Source: a bacterium (GTDB lineage Bacteria; Myxococcota_A; UBA9160; UBA4427). From it: a stretch of 64,000 bases of DNA. The notes under the pieces were generated by a model, which had not been told where the DNA came from, ran no database searches, and worked only from the letters and a program-made list of their open reading frames with translations. The DNA lies in contig JANSYR010000003.1 of assembly GCA_024742285.1 (NCBI GenBank), forward strand, positions 124,001 to 188,000, written 5' to 3'. This document shows, in pieces, positions 20,961 through 51,459 of the stretch (position 1 is its first letter; every line of letters starts with the position of its first letter). Position numbers and translations under genes: made by a program.

Positions 20961-21377
20961 TCAGCTCGGGAGGGCGACGAGCACGGTCCCCGTCACGTGA
21001 TCTCCGAGCTGGTTGGCGCCGCGGACGGAGACCTCGATCGTTCCCGCTGCGTCGTCCTTCGCCGTGACGGCGCCTTCGACGGTCATCGTGTCGCCGGGAT
21101 AGTTCGGGGCGCCGAGTCGGATGTCGATCTTCTTGAGGGTCGCGCCCGGGCCGGTCCAGTCCGTCACGAAGCGTCCGACGAAGCCGTTGGTCGTCAGGAT
21201 GTTCATGAAGATGTCCGGCGAGCCACGCTCTTTCGCGAGCTCGGGGTCGTGGTGCACGTCCTGGTAGTCGCGGCTCGCGATCGCCGTGGCGACGATCAGG
21301 GTGCGCGAGAGCGGGATCTCGAGCGACGGGAGCTTCTCTCCGACGGTGACCGAAGCCAGCGATCTCGTTTCACTCAT
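20961..21377 (-). CDS. MaoC-like enoyl-CoA hydratase, catalytic subunit (cluster 1)
   Basis: A 138-residue MaoC hot-dog domain. The hydratase-2 motif is SRDYQDVHHDPELA (about 35-48): the catalytic Asp and His are both kept, while the usual Asn-Pro is Gln-Asp. The length and its pairing with a separate N-domain-like protein (22636-23169) match two-subunit hydratases such as ChsH1-ChsH2, which hydrate bulky steroid enoyl-CoA thioesters. The ATG at 21377 overlaps the stop of the acyl-CoA dehydrogenase gene (ATGA). The substrate is inferred from context only. Confidence 0.82.
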   Translation of the reverse strand: MSETRSLASVTVGEKLPSLEIPLSRTLIVATAIASRDYQDVHHDPELAKERGSPDIFMNILTTNGFVGRFVTDWTGPGATLKKIDIRLGAPNYPGDTMTVEGAVTAKDDAAGTIEVSVRGANQLGDHVTGTVLVALPS

Positions 21378-22534
21378 TGGAGGACCGCTCCCGCGTCGGC
21401 TCCGCTCTTCGCCTCGGCCGCCATTCGCGCACCCAGCGTCGCAAGCTGCTCGTTGGAGCCGCCGAGGGTCATCGCGATGTGCTTGAGGCGCAGGAAGTGG
21501 CGGTGGATCGGGTAGTCGACGTCCGCGCCGATGCCGCCGTGGAGGTGCTGGCACGTGTGCGAGACGCGGTGACCGCCCATGCAGGCCCACCACTTCGCGA
21601 TCGCCGCCTGCTTCTCGGCCGGATCGCCGTTGTCGATCCGCCAGGCCGCCTGCCACATGGTCGAGCGCATCGCCTCGACGTCGATGTACGCGTCGGCTGC
21701 ACGGAGCGACACGCCCTGGAACGAACCGATCGGCTTGTCGAACTGCTTGCGCTCGCTCGTATAGGTCGCCGTCTGCTTCAAGCCTTCGTCGGCGACGCCG
21801 ACGGCGAGGGCGGAGAGGGCCGTCGCAGCGCGCGGCTCCAGCCAGTCGAGGACGGCCTCGCCCGAACCGGGGAGCGCGAGCACGTCGCCCGCGGCCACGT
21901 TCACGCCGTCGAGGTTCAGCACGAACTGGCGTTCGTGCGCCGTGGTCTCCTGCTGCTCGAGGGTCACGCCGGCCGCGCCCGGCTCGACGAGGAAGAGGCC
22001 GAGCCCGCCGTCGCCCTGGGCGGAGACGAGGATCTTGTCGGCCGCCGCCGCGAAGGGTACGCAGACCTTCTGGCCGGAGAGGGCGAAGCCGTCGCCCGTC
22101 GCTTCCGCGCGCGTGCGCGCCTTGCGCGACAGCGCCGGGTCACCGACCTCGAAGAGCGCCGCGGTCAGGAGCGTGCTGCCGTTCGCGATGGCGGGAAGCA
22201 GGTCCTTCTTGAGGATCTCGCTTCCGAACTGCTGGATCGGCAGGGCCGTGTAGACGACCGACTCGATGAGCGGGATCGGAGCGAGGTTGCGGCCCGCCTG
22301 CTCGAGGAGAAGGCAGAGCGCGAGGAAGCTCCAGTCCTGTCCGCCGTGCTCTTCCGAGAGCGCGAGACCGAGCAGGTTCGACTCGGCGAGGGACGCCCAG
22401 AGGACCTGGTCGAAGCCCGGGCCGTCCGCGTCGGCCTCGACCTCGCGCAGGCGGTCGAAGCTCGTCGCGTCGCCGAGGATCTGGCCGGCCAGCTCCTGGA
22501 CCGCTTCTTCTTCTTCACTGAAATCGAAATTCAT
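21374..22534 (-). CDS. Acyl-CoA dehydrogenase, divergent subunit (cluster 1)
   Basis: A 386-residue acyl-CoA dehydrogenase fold protein: N-terminal helical domain (FDFSEEEEAVQELAGQIL), a degenerate middle beta domain, and a C-terminal helical domain with YTSERKQFDKPIGSFQGV and HLHGGIGADVDYPIHRHF. The middle-domain signature of typical members (the YSEPxxGTD type) is missing, and Asp occupies the place of the Glu found in GGxGYxxE-type enzymes. Such divergent chains occur as one half of alpha2-beta2 dehydrogenases (ChsE type). The partner would be the 23186-24361 product, two genes upstream. Confidence 0.85.
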   Translation of the reverse strand: MNFDFSEEEEAVQELAGQILGDATSFDRLREVEADADGPGFDQVLWASLAESNLLGLALSEEHGGQDWSFLALCLLLEQAGRNLAPIPLIESVVYTALPIQQFGSEILKKDLLPAIANGSTLLTAALFEVGDPALSRKARTRAEATGDGFALSGQKVCVPFAAAADKILVSAQGDGGLGLFLVEPGAAGVTLEQQETTAHERQFVLNLDGVNVAAGDVLALPGSGEAVLDWLEPRAATALSALAVGVADEGLKQTATYTSERKQFDKPIGSFQGVSLRAADAYIDVEAMRSTMWQAAWRIDNGDPAEKQAAIAKWWACMGGHRVSHTCQHLHGGIGADVDYPIHRHFLRLKHIAMTLGGSNEQLATLGARMAAEAKSGADAGAVLQ

Positions 22535-22601
22535 CGGGAACTCCGTGATTGTTTCTGTCTGCGCGGCCCGTGGCCGTCGCGTGGGAGGAGGGGGCCAACC
22601 C

Positions 22602-22620
22602 GTCGCCGAGCGCCCGCAGG
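22602..22620. repeat. Dispersed 19-base repeat, copy B
   Basis: Exact copy of the repeat at 16085-16103. It lies 15 bases downstream of the stop of the minus-strand gene at 22636-23169, in the spacer before the next dehydrogenase gene. Confidence 0.8.
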
Positions 22621-22635
22621 CGACAGACCAGGCGA

Positions 22636-23169
22636 CTAACTCGGCGGTCGGAACTTGAGGATGCGAAAGCGCATCGTCGCGACGACCTCGCCGGCGGCAT
22701 CCTTGTACGTGTAGAGCTGGGTCACGAAGTGACCGACGCCGAGGCCCGTCTTCTTCTCGCCGGAAATCGACTCGGTCGTGACCTCGTGACTGATCTGGTC
22801 ACCGGGGACGAGCTCGCGGAAGTACTCCTGCTCGCAGTTGGTCGCGACGACCGAGGTGAAGCCCGCCTCGTCGAGGACGTCGAGGGATTGCTTCTGGTCG
22901 CCCAGCGCCGCGGCGTAGGCCTCTTCCTCTTCGGTCGAAGGCCGCAGTCCGCGCATCGTCCAGGCCTGCAGCATGGCCGGCGGCGCGATCAGCCCATCCC
23001 GGCCGGCAGCCTTCGCGGCCTCCGGGTCGAGGTACGCCGGATTGCGATCGCCGATCGCGTCGCACCAATGGTGGATCATCGGCTCGTTGACCGGATAGGG
23101 GCAGGTGCCCGTCGGGCCCGCCGGCGTGCCGGCGAAGGCGTCCAGGGTCTTCTGAAGATCGTCGCTCAT
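22636..23169 (-). CDS. MaoC-type N-domain (FAS1-like dehydratase) protein, cluster 1
   Basis: A 177-residue hot-dog protein of the FAS1-like dehydratase / ChsH2 N-domain type. The GDRNPAYLDPEAAKAAG stretch keeps Asp and Asn but has Tyr where an active MaoC has His; GLIAPPAMLQAW follows. This is the normal state of the non-catalytic partner, which shapes the acyl tunnel for the catalytic MaoC. In mycobacteria ChsH2 carries an extra C-terminal DUF35 domain; that is absent here. It is 16 bases from the upstream dehydrogenase gene. Confidence 0.85.
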   Translation of the reverse strand: MSDDLQKTLDAFAGTPAGPTGTCPYPVNEPMIHHWCDAIGDRNPAYLDPEAAKAAGRDGLIAPPAMLQAWTMRGLRPSTEEEEAYAAALGDQKQSLDVLDEAGFTSVVATNCEQEYFRELVPGDQISHEVTTESISGEKKTGLGVGHFVTQLYTYKDAAGEVVATMRFRILKFRPPS

Positions 23170-23185
23170 ACCGAGGTCTCCCCGC

Positions 23186-24361
23186 CTAGCGCGGAACGCG
23201 CGGCATGCGGAGGCCGGCCATCGAGACGATCTCCCGCTGGATCTCGTTCACACCGCCACCGAAAGTGTTGATCGTCGCCTGCCGCGCCTCGTGCTCGATC
23301 TCGCCGTCGATCTGCGCCGCCGGCGAGCCCGCGGCGACGAGCGCGCTGGGGCCCACGATCTCCTGGAGCAGGCGGTAGACCTCGAGCACGACCTCGGTTC
23401 CGTAGACCTTGACCGCGGAGGCGTCCGCCGGGTTCACGAACCCGGACTCGAGCTGCGACGTCATGCGCCAGTTGAGGAGCTTCATTGCTTCGATTCGCGC
23501 GTAGACCTCGGCCAGGTTCGACTGGACCCACGGCAGGTCGATCATCTTCTGACCGTCCGGCGTCTCGGTATCCCGCGCCCAGCTGATCACCTTCTCGGTC
23601 CGCGCGTACGCCGCGGAGCCGAAAGCCGCGAGTCCGACACGTTCGTGGTTCAGCTGGGAAGTGATCAGCTTCCAGCCGCCGTGCAGCCCGCCGACGATGT
23701 TCTCCTTGGGAACGCGCACGTTCTCGTAGTAGGACATCGCCGTGGCGGAGCCGGAGAGCGTGTGGATCGGCGCGGCGCTGAAGCCCTCGCTGTCGGCGGG
23801 GACGATGAACATCGTGATGCCCTTGTGCTTCGGGGCATCCGGATCGGTTCGCGCGGCGAGCCAGATGAAGTCCGTGTCCGTCGCACCCGACGTGAACATC
23901 TTCGTGCCGTTGATGACGTAGTCGTCGCCGTCGGCGACGGCCGTCGTCGTGAGGCTCGCGAGGTCCGTACCCGCGTTCGGCTCGGAGTAGCCGATCGAGA
24001 AGTGACACTCGCCGTGGAGGATCTTCGGCAGGTATTCCGCCTTCTGTTCCTCGCTGCCGTACTCCATCAGCGCCGGGCCGACCGTCGAGACGGTCACGAA
24101 GGGGAAGGGCGCGCCCGAGCGGCGCTGCTCTTCGAGGAAGATCATCTGCTCGACCATGGTCATGCCGCCGCCGCCGTACTCGCTCGGCCAGCCGACGCCG
24201 AGCCAGCCGTCCTTGCCGATCTGGCGCACGAGCTCGCGGTACTTCTGGCCGCCTTCCATGCCGGAGACTTCGGCCTTGACCTCGGGCGTCATCAGGTGGT
24301 CGAAGTAGGCACGGAGCTGCTGTCGCAGCGCCTTCTGGTCTTCGGTCAGGTCGATGTACAT
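23186..24361 (-). CDS. Acyl-CoA dehydrogenase, typical subunit (cluster 1)
   Basis: A 391-residue acyl-CoA dehydrogenase, first gene of a four-gene unit. The flavin/substrate signature FSIGYSEPNAGTDLASL and the NGTKMFTSGA block are intact, and the C-terminus has FGGGVNEIQREIVS, the conserved flavin-contacting segment. It oxidises an acyl-CoA to the 2-enoyl-CoA with FAD, passing electrons to ETF. No residue equivalent to the GGxGYxxE glutamate is visible, which fits a heteromeric enzyme in which the divergent partner supplies the base. The substrate is unknown; a branched or steroidal acyl-CoA is suggested by the MaoC pair. Confidence 0.9.
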   Translation of the reverse strand: MYIDLTEDQKALRQQLRAYFDHLMTPEVKAEVSGMEGGQKYRELVRQIGKDGWLGVGWPSEYGGGGMTMVEQMIFLEEQRRSGAPFPFVTVSTVGPALMEYGSEEQKAEYLPKILHGECHFSIGYSEPNAGTDLASLTTTAVADGDDYVINGTKMFTSGATDTDFIWLAARTDPDAPKHKGITMFIVPADSEGFSAAPIHTLSGSATAMSYYENVRVPKENIVGGLHGGWKLITSQLNHERVGLAAFGSAAYARTEKVISWARDTETPDGQKMIDLPWVQSNLAEVYARIEAMKLLNWRMTSQLESGFVNPADASAVKVYGTEVVLEVYRLLQEIVGPSALVAAGSPAAQIDGEIEHEARQATINTFGGGVNEIQREIVSMAGLRMPRVPR

Positions 24362-39159: not shown

Positions 39160-40914
39160 CTAGGCGGGCGTCGCCTGCGCTCCGCGGATCAGCCGACCCG
39201 GTCGCGCGTCCGTGATCTCTCCATCGCGCATCGTCACCTGTCCGGAAACGATCGTCGCGTCGTAGCCCCGGCTCTTCTGGAGCAGCCGTCGCGCCCCGCC
39301 GGGCAGGTCGAAGGCCATCTCCGGTCGGCGGAGCGAGAGGTTGTCGAAGTCGATCACGTTGAAGTCGGCCTTGTAGCCGGGGGCGACCACGCCGCGGTCG
39401 TAGAGTCCGTAGACCCGCGCCGTGTCCTGGGTCATGCGATGGACGGCGTGCTCGAGGCCGACCTTGGGTCCCCGCTTCCGGTCGCGAACCCAGTGGGTCA
39501 GCATGAAGGTCTGGAGCGAGGCGTCGCAGATCACGCCGCAGTGCGCGCCGCCGTCGCCGAGGGACACGACCGCCCGGTCGTCGTTCAGCAGCTCGTGCAT
39601 CAAGTCGAGGTTGCCGTCGCTGTAGTTGAAGAAGGTGAGCAACAGGAGCTCCTTGCCTTCGTCGCGCAGCATGTAGTCGTAGAGGACCTCGTCCGCGTTC
39701 CGGCCCTCGCGCTGGGCGATCGCCCAGATGCTCTGCTCCGGGCCCGGCTCGTAGTCCGGCGGATCGCCGAGGGGGAAGATCTTCTTCAGCATGTATTCGT
39801 TGTCGAGCATGCTGCCGAAGCCGGCCGAATCGTCCCGCTCCGGACCGAGGATCCGTGCACGCACGTCGGGATCCTTCATGCGGGCGACGCGCTCCGCAAG
39901 CGGCAGGTCCTTGATCTCGAGATAGGCCGGCCGGCTGAGGAACTGGTTCGCCTCGGTCTGATGGCCCGTGAGGATGCCGAAGGGACGCGGGGCGAACTGG
40001 GCCATCACGTCACCGCCGTTCTCGTGGGACTTGTGGCAGATCTCGACCAGCTCACGCCACTGGTTCGGCGCGCCGTCGAACTGGAGCATCGCGAAGGAGA
40101 CCGGCCGCTGGATCTCCTTCGAGAGGCGCTGCATCCACTCGATCTCCTTGAGCGCCGAGTCGACCTCGTCCCCGCCCATGTCGCCCGCGGCGCCGGCGCC
40201 GGCGAGCTCGAACACGCCCTGGCCGAGGTCGCCGAGCACGCGACCGATCCCGAAGAGCTCGTCCTCCGCGGCGAAGGTGCCGGGCACCGGCTCGCCGGAG
40301 AGCGCCTTGTGTCCCATCGTCCGCGAGGTAGAGAAGCCGAGCGCGCCCGCCTGGATGCCTTCCTTCACGAGCTCGGCCATCTCGGCGATGTCGTCGGCGG
40401 TGGCCGCTTCGTTGTTCGCGCCGCGTTCGCCCATCACGTACGTGCGGATCGAGCCGTGAGGCACGTGGGTCCCGAGGTCCACCGCGAGCGGCGAGCGCTC
40501 GAGCGCGTCGAGGTATTCCGGGAAGGTCTCCCAGTCCCACTTGATGCCCTCGGAGAGCGCGGCGCCCGGGATGTCCTCCACGCCTTCCATCAGCTCGATC
40601 ATCATCTGTCGCTGGTCCGGGCGCGCCGGGGCGAAGCCGACCCCGCAATTCCCGACGACGGCGGTCGTCACGCCGTGCCAGCCCGAGGGCAGCAGGTGCG
40701 GATCCCAGGTCGCCTGGGCGTCGTAGTGGGTGTGGATGTCGACGAAGCCCGGGGTGACCAGGCGGCCGTCGGCGTCGATCGTCTCCCGCGCCTCGCCCTC
40801 GACCTTGCCGACCTCGGTGATCACGCCGTCGCTCACGGCGACGTCGCCCGAGAAGGCTTCGTTCGTTCCGGTTCCGTCGACGATCTTTCCGTTGCGGATG
40901 ACGAGGTCGTGCAT
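39160..40914 (-). CDS. N-acyl-D-amino-acid deacylase-like amidohydrolase
   Basis: A 584-residue amidohydrolase of the D-aminoacylase type (Amidohydro_3). It opens with HDLVIRNGKIVDGTG, and the metal site is FVDIHTHYDAQ (His61, His63). VVGNCGVGFAP, SLGDGGAHCG and a closing GYDATIVSGQVTMRDGEI are family features. Known members hydrolyse N-acyl-D-amino acids; many relatives have unknown substrates. ATG at 40914 fits the family start; a longer frame upstream crosses the pit gene and is a shadow. Confidence 0.87.
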   Translation of the reverse strand: MHDLVIRNGKIVDGTGTNEAFSGDVAVSDGVITEVGKVEGEARETIDADGRLVTPGFVDIHTHYDAQATWDPHLLPSGWHGVTTAVVGNCGVGFAPARPDQRQMMIELMEGVEDIPGAALSEGIKWDWETFPEYLDALERSPLAVDLGTHVPHGSIRTYVMGERGANNEAATADDIAEMAELVKEGIQAGALGFSTSRTMGHKALSGEPVPGTFAAEDELFGIGRVLGDLGQGVFELAGAGAAGDMGGDEVDSALKEIEWMQRLSKEIQRPVSFAMLQFDGAPNQWRELVEICHKSHENGGDVMAQFAPRPFGILTGHQTEANQFLSRPAYLEIKDLPLAERVARMKDPDVRARILGPERDDSAGFGSMLDNEYMLKKIFPLGDPPDYEPGPEQSIWAIAQREGRNADEVLYDYMLRDEGKELLLLTFFNYSDGNLDLMHELLNDDRAVVSLGDGGAHCGVICDASLQTFMLTHWVRDRKRGPKVGLEHAVHRMTQDTARVYGLYDRGVVAPGYKADFNVIDFDNLSLRRPEMAFDLPGGARRLLQKSRGYDATIVSGQVTMRDGEITDARPGRLIRGAQATPA

Positions 40915-43715: not shown

Positions 43716-44150
43716 CTAGAGCGTGACCTTCGCCGTGCCCACGACCGGGGTCTCGCCCTTTTCGTTCCGGAGCGTCAGGTCGACCTCGATCACCTTCGTG
43801 TCGTCGTCGATGTCGGTGACGACGCCGCTGGCGACGGGCTTCGAGTCGACGAGGAGCGGGGCGCGGAAGATCGTGTCGACGTTCAACACCTTCGCGTTCG
43901 GCGCCCAGGCATGGATCGCGGCGACGAGGATCCCCTGGCTCATGATGCCTGGCACGATCGCGCCGGGGAGTCCGGCCTTCTTCGCGGCCTCGTGGTCGGT
44001 GAATCGGTCGGCGAGCATCATGGAGGCCTTGGCGAAGACCTTCACGGTGTCGAGGCTCACGTCGACGTCGACCTCGGGGAGGTCCTCGCCGAACTCGACG
44101 TCTTCGAACTGCTTCTCGGAGGTCTCGGGGGTGTCGGAGGGCTTGCTCAT
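43716..44150 (-). CDS. MaoC-like hot-dog protein lacking the catalytic dyad (cluster 2)
   Basis: A 144-residue hot-dog protein related to MaoC hydratases: VDVDVSLDTVKVF start, EAAKKAGLPGAIVPGIMSQG helix and the final VVGTAKVTL strand. When aligned with the GDxNPxHxD motif, its LADRFTDHEAA segment has Met and Phe at the Asp and His positions. It may therefore be non-hydrating, or the alignment may shift. It pairs with the next gene (3-base gap) in the same manner as the cluster 1 subunits. Confidence 0.8.
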   Translation of the reverse strand: MSKPSDTPETSEKQFEDVEFGEDLPEVDVDVSLDTVKVFAKASMMLADRFTDHEAAKKAGLPGAIVPGIMSQGILVAAIHAWAPNAKVLNVDTIFRAPLLVDSKPVASGVVTDIDDDTKVIEVDLTLRNEKGETPVVGTAKVTL

Positions 44151-44153
44151 GGC

Positions 44154-44588
44154 TCAGTCGAACTCGCGCTGGACCAGACGCCAGTCGACCGTCGCGAGAG
44201 GGTCGCCGCCCTGGTTGTAGAAGTTCATGCGGTGGACGATGAAGAGCATGGTGCCGGTCCGGCCGCTCTTCTCGTAGATGTCGTGGATCTCGCTCCGGCC
44301 GGTCACGCGGTCGCCCTGTCGGACCGGCTGGTGGACCTGGATCGACTTGCCGGCGTCGAAGCATCGGTGCATCTCGACCGGGAATCCCTCGGGCAGCGAG
44401 CGCGTCCCGTGGATCCGCGTGAGGTAGTTGGGCACGCCCTGGAAGTCCGCGTGGGACGGGTCGACGAAGCGCGGATGGGTCTCGCCGCAGGCGGTGGCGA
44501 AGCCGACGAGGGAGTCGGCCTCGATCTCGAGGTCGATCTCGTCGAAGACGTGGTCGCCGTATTCGGCGAGGAGTTCGGCAGCGGTCAT
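44154..44588 (-). CDS. MaoC N-domain-like (FAS1-type) hot-dog protein, cluster 2
   Basis: A 144-residue hot-dog protein of the FAS1-like dehydratase type, resembling the N-domain of ChsH2. The region CGETHPRFVDPSHADFQG replaces Asp and Asn/His of the catalytic motif, as expected of the non-catalytic partner. GVPNYLTRIHGT and the C-terminal FNQGG-like NFYNQGGDPLA block are typical. It should form a heterodimer with the 43716-44150 product. The clustered dehydrogenases and thiolase-like protein lie a few genes away on the same strand, but interrupted by plus-strand genes. Confidence 0.8.
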   Translation of the reverse strand: MTAAELLAEYGDHVFDEIDLEIEADSLVGFATACGETHPRFVDPSHADFQGVPNYLTRIHGTRSLPEGFPVEMHRCFDAGKSIQVHQPVRQGDRVTGRSEIHDIYEKSGRTGTMLFIVHRMNFYNQGGDPLATVDWRLVQREFD

Positions 44589-44829
44589 GGTCGTTCTCGG
44601 CGGAGGGCGGCGGATCGGCCGCGGACCCGATCGTAGAGGTTTCGCCTGCGATGTCGAATCCGGCGCTCTCGAGATTCGCGTAGGAAACAGGCGGGCGCCC
44701 GTTCCTGGATTCTCGCTTCATTCGTCCGTCGGGGCGAGCCATTCCTTCGCGATTCCCGAGCCTCGGGCGCCACGAAGAGACGAGACCCCGGCGCGTTCGG
44801 CTCGGCCGGGGATTCGGAAGGAACCGCCC

Positions 44830-45432
44830 ATGACCCCCCGATTCCGTGCCCCCTCGTCTCTCGTCGTCTTCTTTGTCCTGAGCTTCGCCGCCGGCGGTGC
44901 CCAGGCGTACACCGAGACCACCGACGGCGAGTTCTCCGCCGACCCCCTCGCGCCGACGCCGGTCGACGTCGCGCCGGGCAGCAACCTCTTCACGGGCTCG
45001 GTCGCGGCGCCCGAGGACGTGCGGGACTACTGGACGTTCACGATCGATCCCGGCGAGCTCCTGACGGCGATCCAGCTCGTGTCGTCCGAGGACGGCACGA
45101 CCGGCGGAGCCCCTGACCGGGGGTTCATCGCCCTCCACCCGGGGGCGACGGCCGCGATCCCCGGTGGCAGCACGATCGGCGGGTTCCTCGGCGGCGATCA
45201 TCTCGATGCGATCGACGCGGGAACGGACGTGCTCCTCAACCTGGCCGGGGCGCCGCTCGGCGGAACCGGCTTCACCGCGCCCCTCGGGCCAGGCGACTAT
45301 GCGTTCCTCATTCAGCAGACCAGCGGCCAGATCATTGCCTACACCTTCGACTTCGTCGTCATCCCGGAGCCCGGCACGGCGTTGCTCCTCGGACTCGGGC
45401 TGGCCGGTCTGTCGGCGAGACGTCGCCGGTAG
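44830..45432 (+). CDS. PEP-CTERM surface protein
   Basis: A 200-residue secreted protein: signal peptide (about 1-26, ending GGAQA), a beta-rich body with Asp/Gly/Thr-rich segments, and a C-terminal IPEPGTALLLGLGLAGL helix with an Arg cluster. That end is the PEP-CTERM sorting signal recognised by an exosortase, so the protein is probably processed and anchored or released at the cell surface. The body has the pattern of a bacterial pre-peptidase C-terminal type domain (DYWTFTIDPG). It is followed by EthD and has no obvious operon partner. Confidence 0.85.
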   Translation: MTPRFRAPSSLVVFFVLSFAAGGAQAYTETTDGEFSADPLAPTPVDVAPGSNLFTGSVAAPEDVRDYWTFTIDPGELLTAIQLVSSEDGTTGGAPDRGFIALHPGATAAIPGGSTIGGFLGGDHLDAIDAGTDVLLNLAGAPLGGTGFTAPLGPGDYAFLIQQTSGQIIAYTFDFVVIPEPGTALLLGLGLAGLSARRRR

Positions 45433-45484
45433 CTCGCGCCCGGATCGCCTTCGCTCCTAGACTGTCCAGCGAGGAGGGCGTCTC

Positions 45485-45838
45485 GTGATCAAGGTCATCG
45501 TGATGGTGAAGCGGAATTCCGCGCTCACCCCGGCAGAGTTCCATCGCCATTGGCGCGAGGTGCACGCGCGCCTCGTCGCGGACACCCCGAGCGTCGCCCG
45601 CCGCATCGTCCGCTACGAGCAGAACCACCGAACCGAGGAGGACTACGCCCGCGGCGAAGTCGACTTCGACGGCGTGGCGATCGCCTGGTACCGCTCGCGC
45701 GAGGACATGGACGCGCTCTTCGCGGAGCCCGACTACCAGGCCGTCATCGCCCCGGACGAGGCCCGGCTCTCGGATCAGGAACGCAACGTCTGGATCGTGA
45801 CGGAAGAGGAAGAGGTGGTGATCGGCGGCGAGCGCTGA
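45485..45838 (+). CDS. EthD-family (dimeric alpha-beta barrel) protein
   Basis: A 117-residue protein with the EthD start IKVIVMVKRNSALTPAEFHRHW and HARLVADTP, the family's signature. EthD-like ferredoxin-fold dimers accompany oxidative catabolic systems, but most members have no known activity. It follows the PEP-CTERM gene by 52 bases on the same strand. Confidence 0.85.
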   Translation: MIKVIVMVKRNSALTPAEFHRHWREVHARLVADTPSVARRIVRYEQNHRTEEDYARGEVDFDGVAIAWYRSREDMDALFAEPDYQAVIAPDEARLSDQERNVWIVTEEEEVVIGGER

Positions 45839-45857
45839 GCACCCCGCGGATGCCCCG

Positions 45858-46493
45858 CTACGCCTGGTCGAGGGGCGTCACCGCCTCGTACCCATCGCCC
45901 TTGAGCGCCGCGACCAGGCCGTCGATGTCGCGGATTTCCGCGTCGAAGCGCGTCGCACAGCGGCCGATGTGGGAGACGATGTGGGAGTCGGATCCGCCGA
46001 TCCGCTTCCAGCCGTAGCGTTCCGCATAGGCGAGGGCCTCTTCGTTCTCTCCCTCGCGACTGCCGCCGTTCAGGGTCTCGACGATCTCGACGCCCTCGAC
46101 TTCGCCCCTGGACTCCCAGTGGGCGCACATCCCGACCTTCGGACGGCCGGGGTGGCAGGGCACGGGGACCGCGCCGCAGCGCTTGCTCTCCTCGAGGACC
46201 ATGGCGAGGGGGTTTCGGATGTCTGCGAAGTCGAAGCGCGCCTTCAGGTCGTCGTTCACGCCGAAGACGAGGACGTGGCCGTACTCGGTCTCGACCTCGC
46301 TCGCCTTCAGGATCAGCAGGCCGAACTCGTCCTCGAGGGCGCGGTAGTCGCTGGTGTCGTCGAACTGCCGGTGTTCCGTCAGGACGAAGCCGTCGAGGGG
46401 GAGTGACTTCTTCCGGATCCACTGGCAGTAGTTCTCGACCTTCGCGCGTCCGTCGTCGCTCGCGACCGAGTGGGAGTGGAGGTCGAGGATCAT
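45858..46493 (-). CDS. PHP-domain metal-dependent phosphoesterase
   Basis: A 211-residue PHP domain. Motif DLHSHSVASDD holds the first metal ligands, ALTEH-type LTEHRQFDD the next, and further His/Glu/Asp residues appear at EVETEYGHVLVF, PCHPGRPK and GGSDSH. PHP domains bind two or three metals and cleave phosphoesters; the substrate is not evident. Its ATG overlaps the stop of the DUF35 gene (ATGA), so it is likely co-transcribed with the thiolase unit. Confidence 0.87.
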   Translation of the reverse strand: MILDLHSHSVASDDGRAKVENYCQWIRKKSLPLDGFVLTEHRQFDDTSDYRALEDEFGLLILKASEVETEYGHVLVFGVNDDLKARFDFADIRNPLAMVLEESKRCGAVPVPCHPGRPKVGMCAHWESRGEVEGVEIVETLNGGSREGENEEALAYAERYGWKRIGGSDSHIVSHIGRCATRFDAEIRDIDGLVAALKGDGYEAVTPLDQA

Positions 46494-46921
46494 GCGGGCA
46501 CGAACCTCGGCACGCCGAGCACGTCGCCGTTCTTCGACGGCGTCGGGACGAAGTCGACCTTGACGGGCATCCCGATCGTGACCGTGTCCGGGTCGCAGTC
46601 GACGATGTTCGTCAGGAGCTGGGGACCCTCTTCGAGCTGGACGTACGAGACGACGTAGGGGACCGCTTTCGCGAACGCGGGCATCTGGTTCTGCCGGACG
46701 ACCGAGTAGGTGTAGACCTCGCCGCGTCCGCTCGCGACGAAGTGCTCGATGTCGTCGGAGAGGCAGCTGGCACAGAGGCCGCGGGGGCGGTGTTGGACCA
46801 CGCCGCAGTCGCGGCAGCGCTGCAACACGAGCTCTCCACGGCCCGCGCCTTCCCAGTACGCGCGGCTCTCCCAGTCGATCGCGGGCGCGGAGTATTCGGG
46901 ATTCTGCTTTTCGTCGGCCAT
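46490..46921 (-). CDS. DUF35 OB-fold zinc-ribbon partner protein
   Basis: A 143-residue protein with rubredoxin-like zinc ribbon cysteines CRDCG (about Cys36/39) and CASC (about Cys50/53) followed by an OB-fold half (GEVYTYSVVRQ ... VPYVVSYVQLEEGPQLLTNIV). DUF35 proteins pair with thiolase-fold enzymes, binding acyl-CoA or the partner; in mycobacteria the DUF35 part of ChsH2 joins the Ltp2 aldolase. It lies 11 bases downstream of a thiolase-like gene, the expected partner. Confidence 0.88.
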   Translation of the reverse strand: MADEKQNPEYSAPAIDWESRAYWEGAGRGELVLQRCRDCGVVQHRPRGLCASCLSDDIEHFVASGRGEVYTYSVVRQNQMPAFAKAVPYVVSYVQLEEGPQLLTNIVDCDPDTVTIGMPVKVDFVPTPSKNGDVLGVPRFVPA

Positions 46922-46932
46922 CTCGCTCTCCC

Positions 46933-48090
46933 CTAGCTGTTGGACAGGATCAGCGTCGCGCCGCTGTGCATCAGACCGAGATAGCCGCCGGTTCCGTGGG
47001 CGACCGCGAGCTCGGCACCTTCGACCTGCCGCGCGCCCAGGCCGCCGCGCAGCTGCCGCACGGCCTCGATCACGAGGAAGATGCCGCGCATCCCGGAATG
47101 ATTGGAGGAGAGTCCGCCGCCGTCCGGGTTGACCGGGAGGCGTCCGCCGAGCCCGATCCCGCCGTTCTCGACGAACGCGCCGCCCTCTCCCTTCTTGCAG
47201 AAGCCGAGGTTCTCGAGGGTGCAGAGGACGGTGATCGTGAACGAGTCGTAGATCGTCGCGAGGTGCATGTCGGCGGGCGAGAGGCCGGCCATCGCGAAAG
47301 CCTGCTCGCCGGACTGCTTCGCGGCGATCGTCGTCAGGTCCGGCGCGCCGATCTCGCGGTGGGCGACGGACTCACCGGTCCCGCGCACGACGACCGGCTT
47401 CTGCCGCAGGTCCTTTGCGCGTTCGAGGCTCGTCACGATCACGGCGCCGCCGCCGTCGCTGATGATGCAGCAGTCGAGGAGGTGGAGCGGGTCGGCGATC
47501 ACGCGGCTCTCGAGCACGTCGGCCCGGGTGATCGGGTTCTGCATCTTCGCGTGGGGATTCAGCGAGGCGTGGTGACGGGTGGAGACGGCGATGTCCGCCA
47601 GCTGCTCGCTCGTCGTGCCGTACTCGTGCATGTGGCGGTGGGCGACCATCGCGTAGGACGAGACGAGCGTCATGCCGTAAGGCGTGTTGAACGCCGCGCC
47701 CGGGTCGCGTCCGCCGGAGTTGCCCGTCCCGATCGCCATCGCGTCGGAGGCGGCCGTCGATCCATAGAGGATCAGTCCGACGTCGCAGAGCCCCGCGTGG
47801 ATCGCCGCAGCGGCGTGCGCCACGTGGGAGACGAAGCTCGATCCGCCGATGTTGCTCCCGTCGAGGTAGCGCGGCTTGATGTTCAGGTACTCGGAGAGCT
47901 GGACCGGCATCATCGCGTCGGAAGCCATCGACGCACAGAAGAGGCCGTCGACGTCCGAGAGCGTGAGCCCCGCGTCGGTGAGGGCTTCCCGGGTGCACTC
48001 GCCCATGATCTGGAAGGAGGTCTTGTCCGGCGCCCATCGGCTCTCGTATTCGTGGATGCCGGCGATCGCGATCTTTCCGGAGAACGACAT
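46933..48090 (-). CDS. Thiolase-fold protein, Ltp2/SCP2-thiolase-like
   Basis: A 385-residue thiolase-fold protein. The usual nucleophilic Cys motif is replaced by SNIGGSSFVSHV (about 79-90), so it cannot act as a normal thiolase. The C-terminal AHGTGGYLGLMHSGATL (364-380) replaces the GHPxGxxG-type loop, and YDSF is at 281-284. The steroid aldolase Ltp2 also lacks the thiolase Cys and, from memory, uses two tyrosines; Tyr281 and Tyr370 are candidates. Together with a DUF35 protein it probably forms a retro-aldolase or acyl-CoA lyase complex. ATG at 48090 fits the family. Confidence 0.86.
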   Translation of the reverse strand: MSFSGKIAIAGIHEYESRWAPDKTSFQIMGECTREALTDAGLTLSDVDGLFCASMASDAMMPVQLSEYLNIKPRYLDGSNIGGSSFVSHVAHAAAAIHAGLCDVGLILYGSTAASDAMAIGTGNSGGRDPGAAFNTPYGMTLVSSYAMVAHRHMHEYGTTSEQLADIAVSTRHHASLNPHAKMQNPITRADVLESRVIADPLHLLDCCIISDGGGAVIVTSLERAKDLRQKPVVVRGTGESVAHREIGAPDLTTIAAKQSGEQAFAMAGLSPADMHLATIYDSFTITVLCTLENLGFCKKGEGGAFVENGGIGLGGRLPVNPDGGGLSSNHSGMRGIFLVIEAVRQLRGGLGARQVEGAELAVAHGTGGYLGLMHSGATLILSNS

Positions 48091-48091
48091 G

Positions 48092-48895
48092 CTAGGCGGC
48101 CTCCGCGGCGCTTCGGATCCGATCGGCGAGGGCTTCGGGCTGCTCGAGCGGGAGGAAATGGGCGGCGGCCTCGATCGTCGAGGACCGGCCGTTCGAGAGC
48201 GCGCTCGCCAGGGCCTCGGCTCGCGCGACACAGTCCGCGTTCTCGGCGGCGCCGGACACGACCGTCACCGGGCATTCGATGCCACACGCCGCCGCGTCGA
48301 AGGCGTCCGACCAGGCGCGGCTCGCCTGGAGGTCGACGAGGGTCGCGCGCGGATCGGTCTTGATCCCTTCCATGTACGCCTTCTGCATCATCTCGCGCCC
48401 GCCTTCCTTGCAGACGCGGGCCGGATCGAAGGGGCGCGGGGCCTTGCCGCGGGTGACCTGGGCCATGGTCGAGATCGCGTCGTCCTCGATCCCGAGTGCG
48501 AGGCCCGAACCGCAGAGGACGAGCCCGGCGACGCGGGTCTGCTTCGCCCATTCGAGGGCGATCAAGGCGCCCATGCCGTGGCCGACCAGGATCGGCTCGT
48601 TCGCGCCGCACCAGTCCGCGACCCAGCGCGCCATCTCGGTCATGTCGCCGATCGAGGGCAGGGCGTCGAGGGAGCCCGAGCGTCCGTGACCCGGGAGGTC
48701 GAAGGCGATCGCGCCGCCGAAGGCTTCGACCGAGGAGAGCAGACCCTCGAAGACCGAGCTCTGGAGCCCGGCGTCGTGGAGGCAGACGATCGGCGGGCCG
48801 TCGCCCAGGACGGGCGGATCCTGGGGCAGGGTCGTGCGGCCGGTGTGGCGCACGAGGATCGGCAGGCCGTCCCGTCGGACGTATTTCTCGGGCAT
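48092..48895 (-). CDS. Alpha/beta hydrolase-fold protein without nucleophile Ser
   Basis: A 267-residue alpha/beta hydrolase fold protein: IVCLHDAGLQSS oxyanion region, FDLPGHGRSG strand-turn, PILVGHGMGALIAL elbow and a C-terminal AAHFLPLEQPEALAD with the catalytic-type His. In the elbow the usual G-x-S-x-G reads G-H-G-M-G, with Gly107 where the Ser nucleophile should be; the codon is GGC in the DNA. It lies one base upstream of the thiolase-like gene. It may be a non-hydrolytic member (lyase, or binding partner). Confidence 0.85.
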   Translation of the reverse strand: MPEKYVRRDGLPILVRHTGRTTLPQDPPVLGDGPPIVCLHDAGLQSSVFEGLLSSVEAFGGAIAFDLPGHGRSGSLDALPSIGDMTEMARWVADWCGANEPILVGHGMGALIALEWAKQTRVAGLVLCGSGLALGIEDDAISTMAQVTRGKAPRPFDPARVCKEGGREMMQKAYMEGIKTDPRATLVDLQASRAWSDAFDAAACGIECPVTVVSGAAENADCVARAEALASALSNGRSSTIEAAAHFLPLEQPEALADRIRSAAEAA

Positions 48896-49011
48896 CGGGG
48901 GCTCCCGGATGAGGCGCGGCGTCGCGCCGAGGGAGTCCGACGAGTAGCAGAAAGTCCGCGCAGGCTCCGGGTACGTCCGGTGCCCGCGCGGACCTCGAGA
49001 GAGCGCGGTGG

Positions 49012-50253
49012 CTACTGCGGCGGGCCGGTCGGGATGTCCTTGAACGCGACGCCCTTGTCGGCGCGGGCGTCCGAGGGGAGGCCCATCACGCGCTCGGCGA
49101 TGATGTTGCGCAGGATCTCGTCCGTGCCGCCCGCGATCCGCAGTCCGGGCAGCGAGAGGTAGCGCTCCTGCCACGCCGCGCCGTCCGGCGTCACCTCGTC
49201 GTCGAGCAGCGCGCCCGACGCGCCCGCGAGGTCCATCGCGAACGAAGCCGCCTCCTGCTGGAGCACCGCGCCGACCAGCTTGCCCATCGAGGCCTCGGGC
49301 CCCGGCGGCAATCCCTTGGAGAGCGCGGTCAACGTCCGAAGCGACGTGTTCTTGAGACCGCGCGCCTTCGTCACGTAGTCCGCGATCCGCTCGCGGACGG
49401 CGGTGTCTTCGATCGCCGGCTTGCCGTCGAGCTCGATCCCCTCGGCGAACTCGACCAGATCCTCGAGCGAGCCCACGCCCATCCCGGAGCCGATCGACTG
49501 GCGTTCGTTCATCAGCGTCGTGAGTGCCACCGACCAACCGTTGCCGACCTCGGAGAGACGCTGGTCGTCGGGGATGCGGACATCGGTGAAGAAGACTTCG
49601 TTGAAGCCCTGGGCCTTGTTGATCTGGGTGATGGGTCGGATCTCGATCCCGGGCGACTTCATGTTGACCACGAAGTAGGAGAGGCCCGCGTGCTTCACGA
49701 CCGTCGGGTCGGTGCGCACGACGAGGATGCCCCACTCGCAGATCTGCGCGCCGGAGGTCCAGATCTTCTGGCCGTTCACGACCCACTCGTCGCCGTCCTT
49801 GACGGCGGTCGTCCGCAGGCCCGCGAGGTCCGAGCCGGCGGAGGGCTCGGAGAAGAGCTGGCACCAGACCTCCTCACCCGAGAGGAGCTTCGGGATCCAG
49901 CGCGCCTGCTGCTCCGGCGTACCGTGGGCCATGACGGTCGGGCCGCACATGCCGATGCCGATCGAGAAGATGTCGCCGGGCGTCTTGAACCTCGCCTGCT
50001 CCTCGTTCCAGATCACGTTCTCCATGGGTGTGGCGCCGCGGCCGCCGTATTCCTTGGGCCAGGTGATGCAGGCCCAGCCGGCGTCGGCCTTCTTCTTCTG
50101 CCAGGCCTGGGCCGCGGCCACGTTCTCGTCGGAAAGGTTCTCGCCCATGATCGGGGCGTCGTCGTCGGGCCCCCGCAGCTCGGCGTTCGCCTCGAGCCAG
50201 GTGCGCGCTTCGGCGCGGAAGGCGGCTTCTTCGGGAGTGTCGTTGAAATCCAT
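49012..50253 (-). CDS. Acyl-CoA dehydrogenase, typical subunit (cluster 2)
   Basis: A 413-residue acyl-CoA dehydrogenase. Flavin/substrate signature CQLFSEPSAGSDLAGLRT, NGQKIWTSGAQ, and C-terminal IAGGTDEILRNIIAERVMGLP are intact. A longer N-terminal segment and the GWACITWPKEYGG block match the FadE17/FadE26-type group involved in steroid or branched-chain oxidation. It lies downstream of the divergent dehydrogenase (114-base gap) and should pair with it. Confidence 0.91.
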   Translation of the reverse strand: MDFNDTPEEAAFRAEARTWLEANAELRGPDDDAPIMGENLSDENVAAAQAWQKKKADAGWACITWPKEYGGRGATPMENVIWNEEQARFKTPGDIFSIGIGMCGPTVMAHGTPEQQARWIPKLLSGEEVWCQLFSEPSAGSDLAGLRTTAVKDGDEWVVNGQKIWTSGAQICEWGILVVRTDPTVVKHAGLSYFVVNMKSPGIEIRPITQINKAQGFNEVFFTDVRIPDDQRLSEVGNGWSVALTTLMNERQSIGSGMGVGSLEDLVEFAEGIELDGKPAIEDTAVRERIADYVTKARGLKNTSLRTLTALSKGLPPGPEASMGKLVGAVLQQEAASFAMDLAGASGALLDDEVTPDGAAWQERYLSLPGLRIAGGTDEILRNIIAERVMGLPSDARADKGVAFKDIPTGPPQ

Positions 50254-50367
50254 GTCGTGTCTCCTGGGCGGATCGCCCGGCTGATGAGTAGAAGGAAGGA
50301 GGGGCGGTCGGATTCGCGGCTCGAGTGTCCGGCGCGAATCCCCTGGTTCCGGCGGAGCCGGAACTGA

Positions 50368-51459
50368 CTAGACGAGCCGATCGATCAGGAGGTTCTTCCA
50401 GTATTTCGGGGTGCCGAGCTGCGACGAGAGGAGCTTGGCTCGCCGGTAGAAGAGGTGGCAGTCGTACTCCCACGTGTATCCGACGCCACCGTGGAACTCG
50501 ATCATCTCGACCGTCGTGTCCTCGAAGGCTTCGCAGGCCGAGATCCGGGCGATCGCCGCGGCGGTCGCGAGCTCGGGGTCGTCGGTCGAGAGCGCCCAGG
50601 CGGCGTAGTACGCGTTCGATCGGGCGAGCTCGACCTTGCACCAGAGGTCGGCCATGCGGTGCTTGATCGCCTGGTTCGCGGCGATCGGCTTGCCGAAGGC
50701 GTAGCGACCGAGGATGAACTCGCGGGTGATCTCGAGGGCGCGTTCGGCGGCGCCGACCTGCTCGAAGGCCTGGAGAACCGCGGCGACGTCGAGGAGCTTC
50801 GCGATCCCCGCCTCGTCGGCGCCGGCGAGCTTCTCCGCCGCCGCCCCGTCGAACGCGAGCTTCGCCTGGGTCCGGCTCATGTCGAAGGAGTCGAGCCCCT
50901 CGCGGGTCACGCCCGCGCCGTCCAGGTCGACCACGTAGAGGCCGAGGGCTCCGCCTTCCGTCGCGGCGACGATCGCCACGTTCGCGACGTCGCCGTCCGC
51001 GACCGGAAGCTTCGTACCGCTGAGCGCGCCGCCGGAGACGCTCGCCTCGATTCCGGCCACCGCGTTCTGGCCGGGCTTCTCGGTGAAGGCGAAGGTGCCG
51101 ATCGCCGAGCCGTCGGCGAGCTTCGGGAGCCAGGCGCCCTTCTGGGCGTCGGAGCCGAAACGGAGGATCGCCTCCGTGGCGACGTAGACGCTCGGGCCGA
51201 AGGGGATCGGCGCGAGGGCGCGACCGACCTCGAAGGCGATCATCGCGAGCTCGAGGTAGCCGAACTCGGCCCCGCCGTACTGCTCGGGCACGACCGCCCC
51301 CTGCCAGCCCATCTCCGCGGCGCCCTTCCAGAGGTCCGTCGCATAGGGCTGATCGCCCTCGAGGATCTCGCGACAGGTCGTGAGGGGTGAGTTGGCTTCG
51401 AGGTAGTCCCTCGCCGTTTGCTGCAAGAGCTTCTGTTCATCGGAAAAGTCGAAGTTCAT
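50368..51459 (-). CDS. Acyl-CoA dehydrogenase, divergent subunit (cluster 2)
   Basis: A 363-residue dehydrogenase-fold protein. The N-terminal FDFSDEQKLLQQTARDYL and C-terminal FHGGVGYTWEYDCHLFYRRAK are recognisable, with Glu in the GGxGYxxE position that supplies the base in medium-chain type enzymes. The middle beta domain (TFAFTEKPGQNAVA) has lost the typical SEPxxGSD residues. The C-terminus (GTPKYWKNLLIDRLV) lacks the NEILRN-type motif. These gaps fit the beta partner of an alpha2-beta2 enzyme; the 49012-50253 product is the probable alpha subunit. It starts at ATG 51459 and is the first gene of the unit. Confidence 0.86.
   Translation of the reverse strand: MNFDFSDEQKLLQQTARDYLEANSPLTTCREILEGDQPYATDLWKGAAEMGWQGAVVPEQYGGAEFGYLELAMIAFEVGRALAPIPFGPSVYVATEAILRFGSDAQKGAWLPKLADGSAIGTFAFTEKPGQNAVAGIEASVSGGALSGTKLPVADGDVANVAIVAATEGGALGLYVVDLDGAGVTREGLDSFDMSRTQAKLAFDGAAAEKLAGADEAGIAKLLDVAAVLQAFEQVGAAERALEITREFILGRYAFGKPIAANQAIKHRMADLWCKVELARSNAYYAAWALSTDDPELATAAAIARISACEAFEDTTVEMIEFHGGVGYTWEYDCHLFYRRAKLLSSQLGTPKYWKNLLIDRLV

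Follow-up and report, generated by a model that had tools for sequence, protein, structure and literature searches.

The window, our name for the whole stretch of 64,000 nucleotides analysed here (contig JANSYR010000003.1, positions 124,001 to 188,000, from a bacterium of the Myxococcota_A lineage), sits in a 6.55 Mb assembly. Between its positions 43,716 and 51,459 lies a group of genes, cluster 2, which we read as a conserved six-gene operon, joined in one family to an acyl-coenzyme A (acyl-CoA) dehydrogenase pair and probably processing a non-steroid acyl-CoA. An earlier note on this DNA had compared cluster 2 with the mycobacterial igr operon, which comprises ChsE1-ChsE2, ChsH1-ChsH2 and Ltp2 and concerns the C3 side chain of cholesterol, and had suggested an independently organised steroid-type side-chain module. 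The eight minus-strand genes that it described are open reading frames, with families assigned by profile matches, and two plus-strand genes interrupt them, as it had also observed:

43716-44150, minus strand: MaoCb, a single hot-dog MaoC protein (PF01575)
44154-44588, minus strand: MaoCa, its partner of the FAS1_DH/MaoC_N type (PF13452)
44830-45432, plus strand: PEP-CTERM protein, a local insertion outside the conserved unit
45485-45838, plus strand: EthD-family protein, a local insertion
45858-46493, minus strand: PHP metallo-phosphoesterase (PF13263, CehA/McbA-like)
46490-46921, minus strand: DUF35 protein, a four-Cys zinc ribbon plus OB fold (PF12172 and PF01796)
46933-48090, minus strand: thiolase-like protein, THL (PF22691; PRK06158 over cut-off)
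48092-48895, minus strand: alpha/beta-hydrolase fold protein, ABH
49012-50253, minus strand: acyl-CoA dehydrogenase of the large-subunit type
50368-51459, minus strand: acyl-CoA dehydrogenase, small or divergent subunit, with no Acyl-CoA_dh_M (middle-domain) match

The DUF35 and PHP reading frames share 4 bases. DUF35 is indeed a separate gene, PHP lies between it and the MaoC genes, and the dehydrogenases are, as the earlier note had it, one typical and one divergent, the latter being the one that lacks the middle-domain match.

Sibling genomes hold all eight minus-strand genes in this order, and six of them keep it across phyla; given this shared gene order, the array is more than a chance assembly. 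Relatives within the class keep the core order, ABH, THL, DUF35, PHP, MaoCa and MaoCb, on a single strand. The PHP alignment alone was searched against 84,980 genomes, one per species, which yielded 285 relatives, and the best 80 were kept. These 80 include 29 Myxococcota-type loci, of which 25 have the six genes complete and ordered (11 with the dehydrogenase pair as well), and 16 Acidimicrobiia loci, of which 12 do; three of the remaining four Acidimicrobiia loci are short contigs. Of 35 loci that are mostly gammaproteobacterial, 24 have PHP-MaoCa-MaoCb, and 16 of these 24 have a convergent DUF35-THL pair on the opposite strand. Genes in the genome stretches were called by a simple script, which may overlook genes or cut them short where contigs are of low quality.

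The flanks of the Acidimicrobiia operons are mostly unrelated between genomes and the six genes stand alone there; because the flanks differ from genome to genome, we take the six genes to be the unit. The dehydrogenase pair is an addition to it at family level: it precedes the operon in several genomes of the window's own family (loci L065, L067, L068, L071, L072 and L083), and is not found before the operon in genomes G012, G045, G050, G062, G080, G081, G082 and G084. The two plus-strand genes were rejected as operon members, since the PEP-CTERM gene is not in the operon of the other relatives examined and an EthD gene adjoins PHP elsewhere only in the closest relative (G003, locus L027).

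The thiolase-like protein had been described as Ltp2-like, a reading that its phylogeny contradicts. It passes the cut-off of the PRK06158 profile (NCBIfam NF004811; 455 bits, cut-off 421) and stays below that of PRK07855 (275 bits, cut-off 469). In a maximum-likelihood tree it falls in the PRK06158 clade with support of 100/99, outside the separate Ltp2 and Sal clades, the first of which contains the cluster-1 Ltp2 genes of sibling genomes. Within the PRK06158 clade, a 12-row subclade (100/99) unites it with the operon proteins of the Myxococcota-type and Acidimicrobiia genomes. We know of no function for the PRK06158 family. Among solved chains, 4u4e, Sal (9myr) and Ltp2 (6ok1) come nearest to the window protein.

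The residues tell the same protein apart from true thiolases. The nucleophilic Cys is replaced by Gly82-Gly83-Ser84 and the second, acid/base Cys by His365, so it does not qualify as a Cys-dependent thiolase; it carries instead Tyr281-Asp-Ser283-Phe and His331, and this residue set (Gly/Ser, YDSF, His331, His365) is conserved in all three groups of operons. The Tyr that is kept occupies the position of the catalytic base of both Ltp2 and Sal. Sal uses Tyr302 as base and Cys304 as acid, and its C304S mutant is inactive; Ltp2 uses two Tyr (PMC12329534). Where the YDC(Y/F) motif of Sal has its catalytic Cys304, the window protein has Ser283. The THL and DUF35 genes are adjacent, as in DUF35-thiolase-like complexes, and by analogy with their homologues the two proteins would form a complex.

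Neither MaoC protein has the expected hydratase site. The Asp/His dyad of HadB aligns with Met/Phe in MaoCb, at positions where ChsH1 has its catalytic Asp/His; across 25 aligned MaoCb sequences the His position is an invariant Phe and the Asp position is variable. MaoCa carries Glu and Phe/Tyr at these positions, and the catalytic dyad is consequently absent from both subunits. Since ChsH1 is the one subunit that retains the dyad in ChsH1-ChsH2 (PMC11321319), its loss from both is a real difference from igr. Two other residues, His53 and His80, are conserved. The fold itself speaks for a relationship with the steroid enzymes, as the MaoCb model (predicted local distance difference test, pLDDT, 94.5) has M. 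tuberculosis ChsH1 (4wnb_B) as its best match, with a template-modelling (TM) score of 0.92 on the target; HadB and PhaJ follow closely behind. The alpha/beta-hydrolase fold protein has likewise lost its signature, the nucleophilic Ser being Gly in the window and Gly, Ser, Asp or Glu across members.

The PHP protein, on the other hand, has a complete metal site (H6, H8, D13, H41, E66, H73, H114, D169 and H171, plus R117) when compared with the trinuclear metal ligands of RNase AM and CV1693 (PMC9410882). These ligands and the Arg of RNase AM are invariant in 22 aligned orthologues and conserved across the three groups. A Foldseek search with the PHP model matched PHP phosphoesterases, CV1693 included, with moderate TM scores. 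From its complete site we predict an active metal-dependent phosphoesterase. CV1693 has been reported to be a 3',5'-nucleotide bisphosphate phosphatase, as cited in PMC9410882 (ref. 24 therein).

In Gammaproteobacteria, a gene for the dephospho-CoA kinase CoaE stands directly before PHP or within ~5 kb of it at 22 PHP loci, and in several genomes this is the only CoaE found; these neighbours suggest the 3'-phosphate of CoA as the target of PHP. The CoaE-PHP loci range from L120 to L163 (e.g. L120 6384-7004) and include some, such as L121 and L133, without nearby MaoC or thiolase genes. Such neighbours, together with the full trinuclear site and the activity cited for CV1693, might also be taken to mean that the operon serves CoA or acyl-CoA housekeeping rather than a carbon-source pathway, with PHP acting on a 3'-phosphate, for instance the one in CoA. 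We consider this unlikely: CoaE itself serves housekeeping and its proximity may be neutral, the operon loci examined in Myxococcota-type genomes and Acidimicrobiia showed no CoaE gene, and the PHP activity is a prediction from sequence with a moderate fold match to CV1693.

The large and the divergent small dehydrogenase genes are adjacent, as for heterotetrameric acyl-CoA dehydrogenases, and their arrangement identifies a putative heterotetramer-type pair. The best solved match of the large subunit is ChsE4, followed by the ChsE1-type Tcur3483, which favours a steroid role; nevertheless, the pair fails an orthology test against ChsE1/ChsE2, and the enzymes of cluster 1, another locus of the window, are far closer. 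Tcur3483 is 54.8% identical to the second acyl-CoA dehydrogenase of cluster 1 (ACAD2) and 31% to the large dehydrogenase of cluster 2, while Tcur3481 is 45.7% identical to ACAD1 and 31.6% to the small one. The igr-like composition proposed earlier is therefore sustained at the level of superfamilies (dehydrogenase pair, MaoC pair, DUF35, thiolase-like protein) and not at that of orthology. The pair also resembles PimC/PimD, but far below the cut-offs, and a pimeloyl-CoA dehydrogenase identity was rejected.

Relatives of these genes occur on plasmids in a different setting. Roseobacter and Burkholderiales plasmids carry related thiolase/DUF35 pairs within acyl-CoA islands that also hold genes for TRAP or TTT transporters. 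On Marinovum and Sulfitobacter plasmids, a dehydrogenase 54% identical to the large subunit accompanies PRK06158-clade thiolase/DUF35 genes beside TAXI-TRAP transporters, and copies in Achromobacter, Variovorax and Methylobacterium lie near TTT substrate-binding genes. (The plasmid of the marine Sulfitobacter sp. SK025, locus L063, 233000-275000, holds three thiolase-like/DUF35 pairs and two TAXI-TRAP transporters in ~42 kb.) The proposed function thus has a narrower form, in which the operon catabolises a soluble organic acid (e.g. branched, cyclic or aromatic) imported by a transporter. This form is possible but doubtful, for no transporter or CoA ligase accompanies the six-gene operon in the relatives' loci and Acidimicrobiia flanks compared, and plasmid searches with PHP and MaoCa found no close relatives. 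Because these two proteins have no close plasmid counterpart, the function of the operon may differ from that of the plasmid islands.

A steroid role was weighed against the igr-type locus of the window itself, which from its gene content is cluster 1:

20961-24361, minus strand: cluster 1, with ChsH1-like, ChsE2-like, ChsH2 MaoC half-like and ChsE1-like genes

Cluster 1 is complete in the siblings G001 and G002 (Ltp2, ChsH1, an acyl-CoA dehydrogenase, a MaoC-DUF35 ChsH2 and a second acyl-CoA dehydrogenase), and compared with L064 7999-13190 and L066 7387-12625 the window copy has two clean gaps, lacking Ltp2 and the DUF35 half of ChsH2. It has lost exactly the aldolase and the aldolase-binding half, and it keeps the two dehydrogenases and the two MaoC parts. 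Further sets of the Ltp2/ChsH1/ChsH2, Sal and HIP types are located elsewhere in the host genome. A ChsH2-ChsH1-Ltp2 set lies at L019, with 590 bits to PRK07855; Ltp2 (6ok1) is 57% identical to the protein at L019 and 54% to that at L020, and Sal (9myr) is 58% identical to that at L009. At L023 (G000 C13:1-15000), PRK06059, PRK07801, PRK07938 and PRK07791 are all over cut-off; this locus resembles the actinobacterial steroid C/D-ring (HIP) cluster, in a Myxococcota-type genome.

The distribution of the operon does not follow that of steroid markers, even though the host genome has a steroid pathway. Within the class, 25 of 32 genomes with the operon and 41 of 58 without it have PRK06059 (Fisher p = 0.62), and over 97 relatives the association of this marker with the operon is not significant (p = 0.17). 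Genome G084, 93% complete and carrying the operon (L078), yielded none of PRK07855, PRK06059, KshA_C and EchA20 at the thresholds used. EchA20 and FadA6, both found in Myxococcota-type carriers, are each over cut-off in 0 of 12 Acidimicrobiia carriers and 1 of 14 gammaproteobacterial carriers (with MaoC genes, in the EchA20 count); absences from incomplete metagenome-assembled genomes are weak one by one, and the pattern is consistent.

These results make the side-chain module of the earlier note very unlikely, and as the principal interpretation it was rejected on phylogeny, residues and distribution. Shared superfamilies, the ChsH1-like fold of MaoCb, the ChsE4 match and the steroid genes of the host genome speak in its favour. 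Against it, the thiolase-like protein belongs to another clade, the dehydrogenases are not the ChsE orthologues, the MaoC dyad is lost, many carriers lack ring-degradation markers, and the characterised steroid enzymes have far nearer relatives in cluster 1 and at L019, L020, L009 and L017.

For the operon as a processor of non-steroid acyl-CoA, the following route may be proposed. The dehydrogenase pair, where present, would oxidise an acyl-CoA upstream, and the MaoC heterodimer would bind the acyl-CoA, either only holding the substrate or using other residues such as His53 and His80. The THL/DUF35 complex would then cleave a C-C bond of the acyl-CoA by acid-base chemistry of the retro-aldol or retro-Claisen type, through Tyr281, Ser283 and His331 instead of a Cys nucleophile; this step might run as cleavage or formation. 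Several points weigh against this interpretation. With both MaoC subunits lacking the hydratase dyad, the series of dehydrogenation, hydration and cleavage is incomplete on known chemistry, and the inactivity of C304S in Sal means that the acid-base set here cannot be that of Sal. Nearby igr sets, a complete one ~3.7 kb downstream of the six genes in G085 (L079 10802-19997), from another family of the class, and one ~20 kb away in the window's genus, could hint at a steroid link. To our knowledge no operon member has been characterised biochemically, and literature searches on PRK06158 and on DUF35 together with PHP yielded no paper about the operon; for this reason we infer its chemistry. A bolder proposal, which we regard as a long shot, is that the six genes are an unrecognised pathway of at least three phyla, in which the dyad-less MaoC pair and the Cys-less THL/DUF35 pair perform new chemistry, PHP acts on the CoA 3'-phosphate, and the route runs through dephospho-CoA thioesters.

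Thiolase-like genes are numerous in the host genome (G000), which carries 17 DUF35 and ~20 thiolase-like genes, mostly paired (L009, L013, L019 and others) and spanning the Ltp2, Sal and PRK06158 types and several unnamed ones. A further gene of the window lies near the operon:

39160-40914, minus strand: amidohydrolase, directly after MaoCb in three sibling genomes

In the window a phosphate transporter pair and one other gene set it apart from MaoCb. Paralogous amidohydrolases adjoin thiolase-like/DUF35 sets at least three times in the host genome or its siblings (window 39160-40914, L013 6428-8158 and L019 6185-7909).

Among thiolase-like/DUF35 modules the operon represents a widespread and uncharacterised variant, whose carriers are mostly uncultured bacteria, and so broad and tightly conserved a unit, with no characterised member found, is a clear target for experiments. 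Automatic annotation as hydratase, thiolase or hydrolase, as well as steroid-degradation calls, is likely to be wrong because the residues behind these names are gone. Gene composition alone is unsafe ground for inferring an igr operon, and it is cluster 1, not cluster 2, that is indicated as the igr-type locus of the window.

Compared with known systems, the operon is like igr in the fold of MaoCb, in having DUF35 next to the thiolase-like gene and in its superfamilies. It differs in having YDSF and His331 where Ltp2 has YDHF and a second catalytic Tyr, in an unfused DUF35 where ChsH2 is a MaoC-DUF35 fusion, in the missing MaoC dyad, in its additional PHP and alpha/beta-hydrolase genes and in its occurrence without steroid markers; the P450 (CYP125) of the igr operon is not among the cluster 2 genes. 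With Sal-Shy, the bile acid aldolase/hydratase of Comamonas testosteroni, it shares the thiolase-like/DUF35 pair, the catalytic Tyr position and the loss of the nucleophilic Cys, but Sal requires Cys304 where Ser stands here, its clade is separate and holds the host's own L009 and L017, and the DUF35 of the operon has four Cys, not Cys3His. The benzoylsuccinyl-CoA thiolase BbsAB has the same thiolase-DUF35 architecture, but this identity was rejected, the scores being far below the BbsA and BbsB cut-offs. The PHP protein shares with CV1693 and RNase AM every metal ligand as well as the phosphate-binding Arg, but it is much shorter between His73 and His114, without the insertion domain, and is an operon partner of acyl-CoA enzymes. 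To PDB 4u4e of the PRK06158 family the thiolase-like protein is 52% identical, with shared YDSF...H...HGTGG motifs, whereas PHP and the dyad-less MaoC pair are linked to the operon subclades only.

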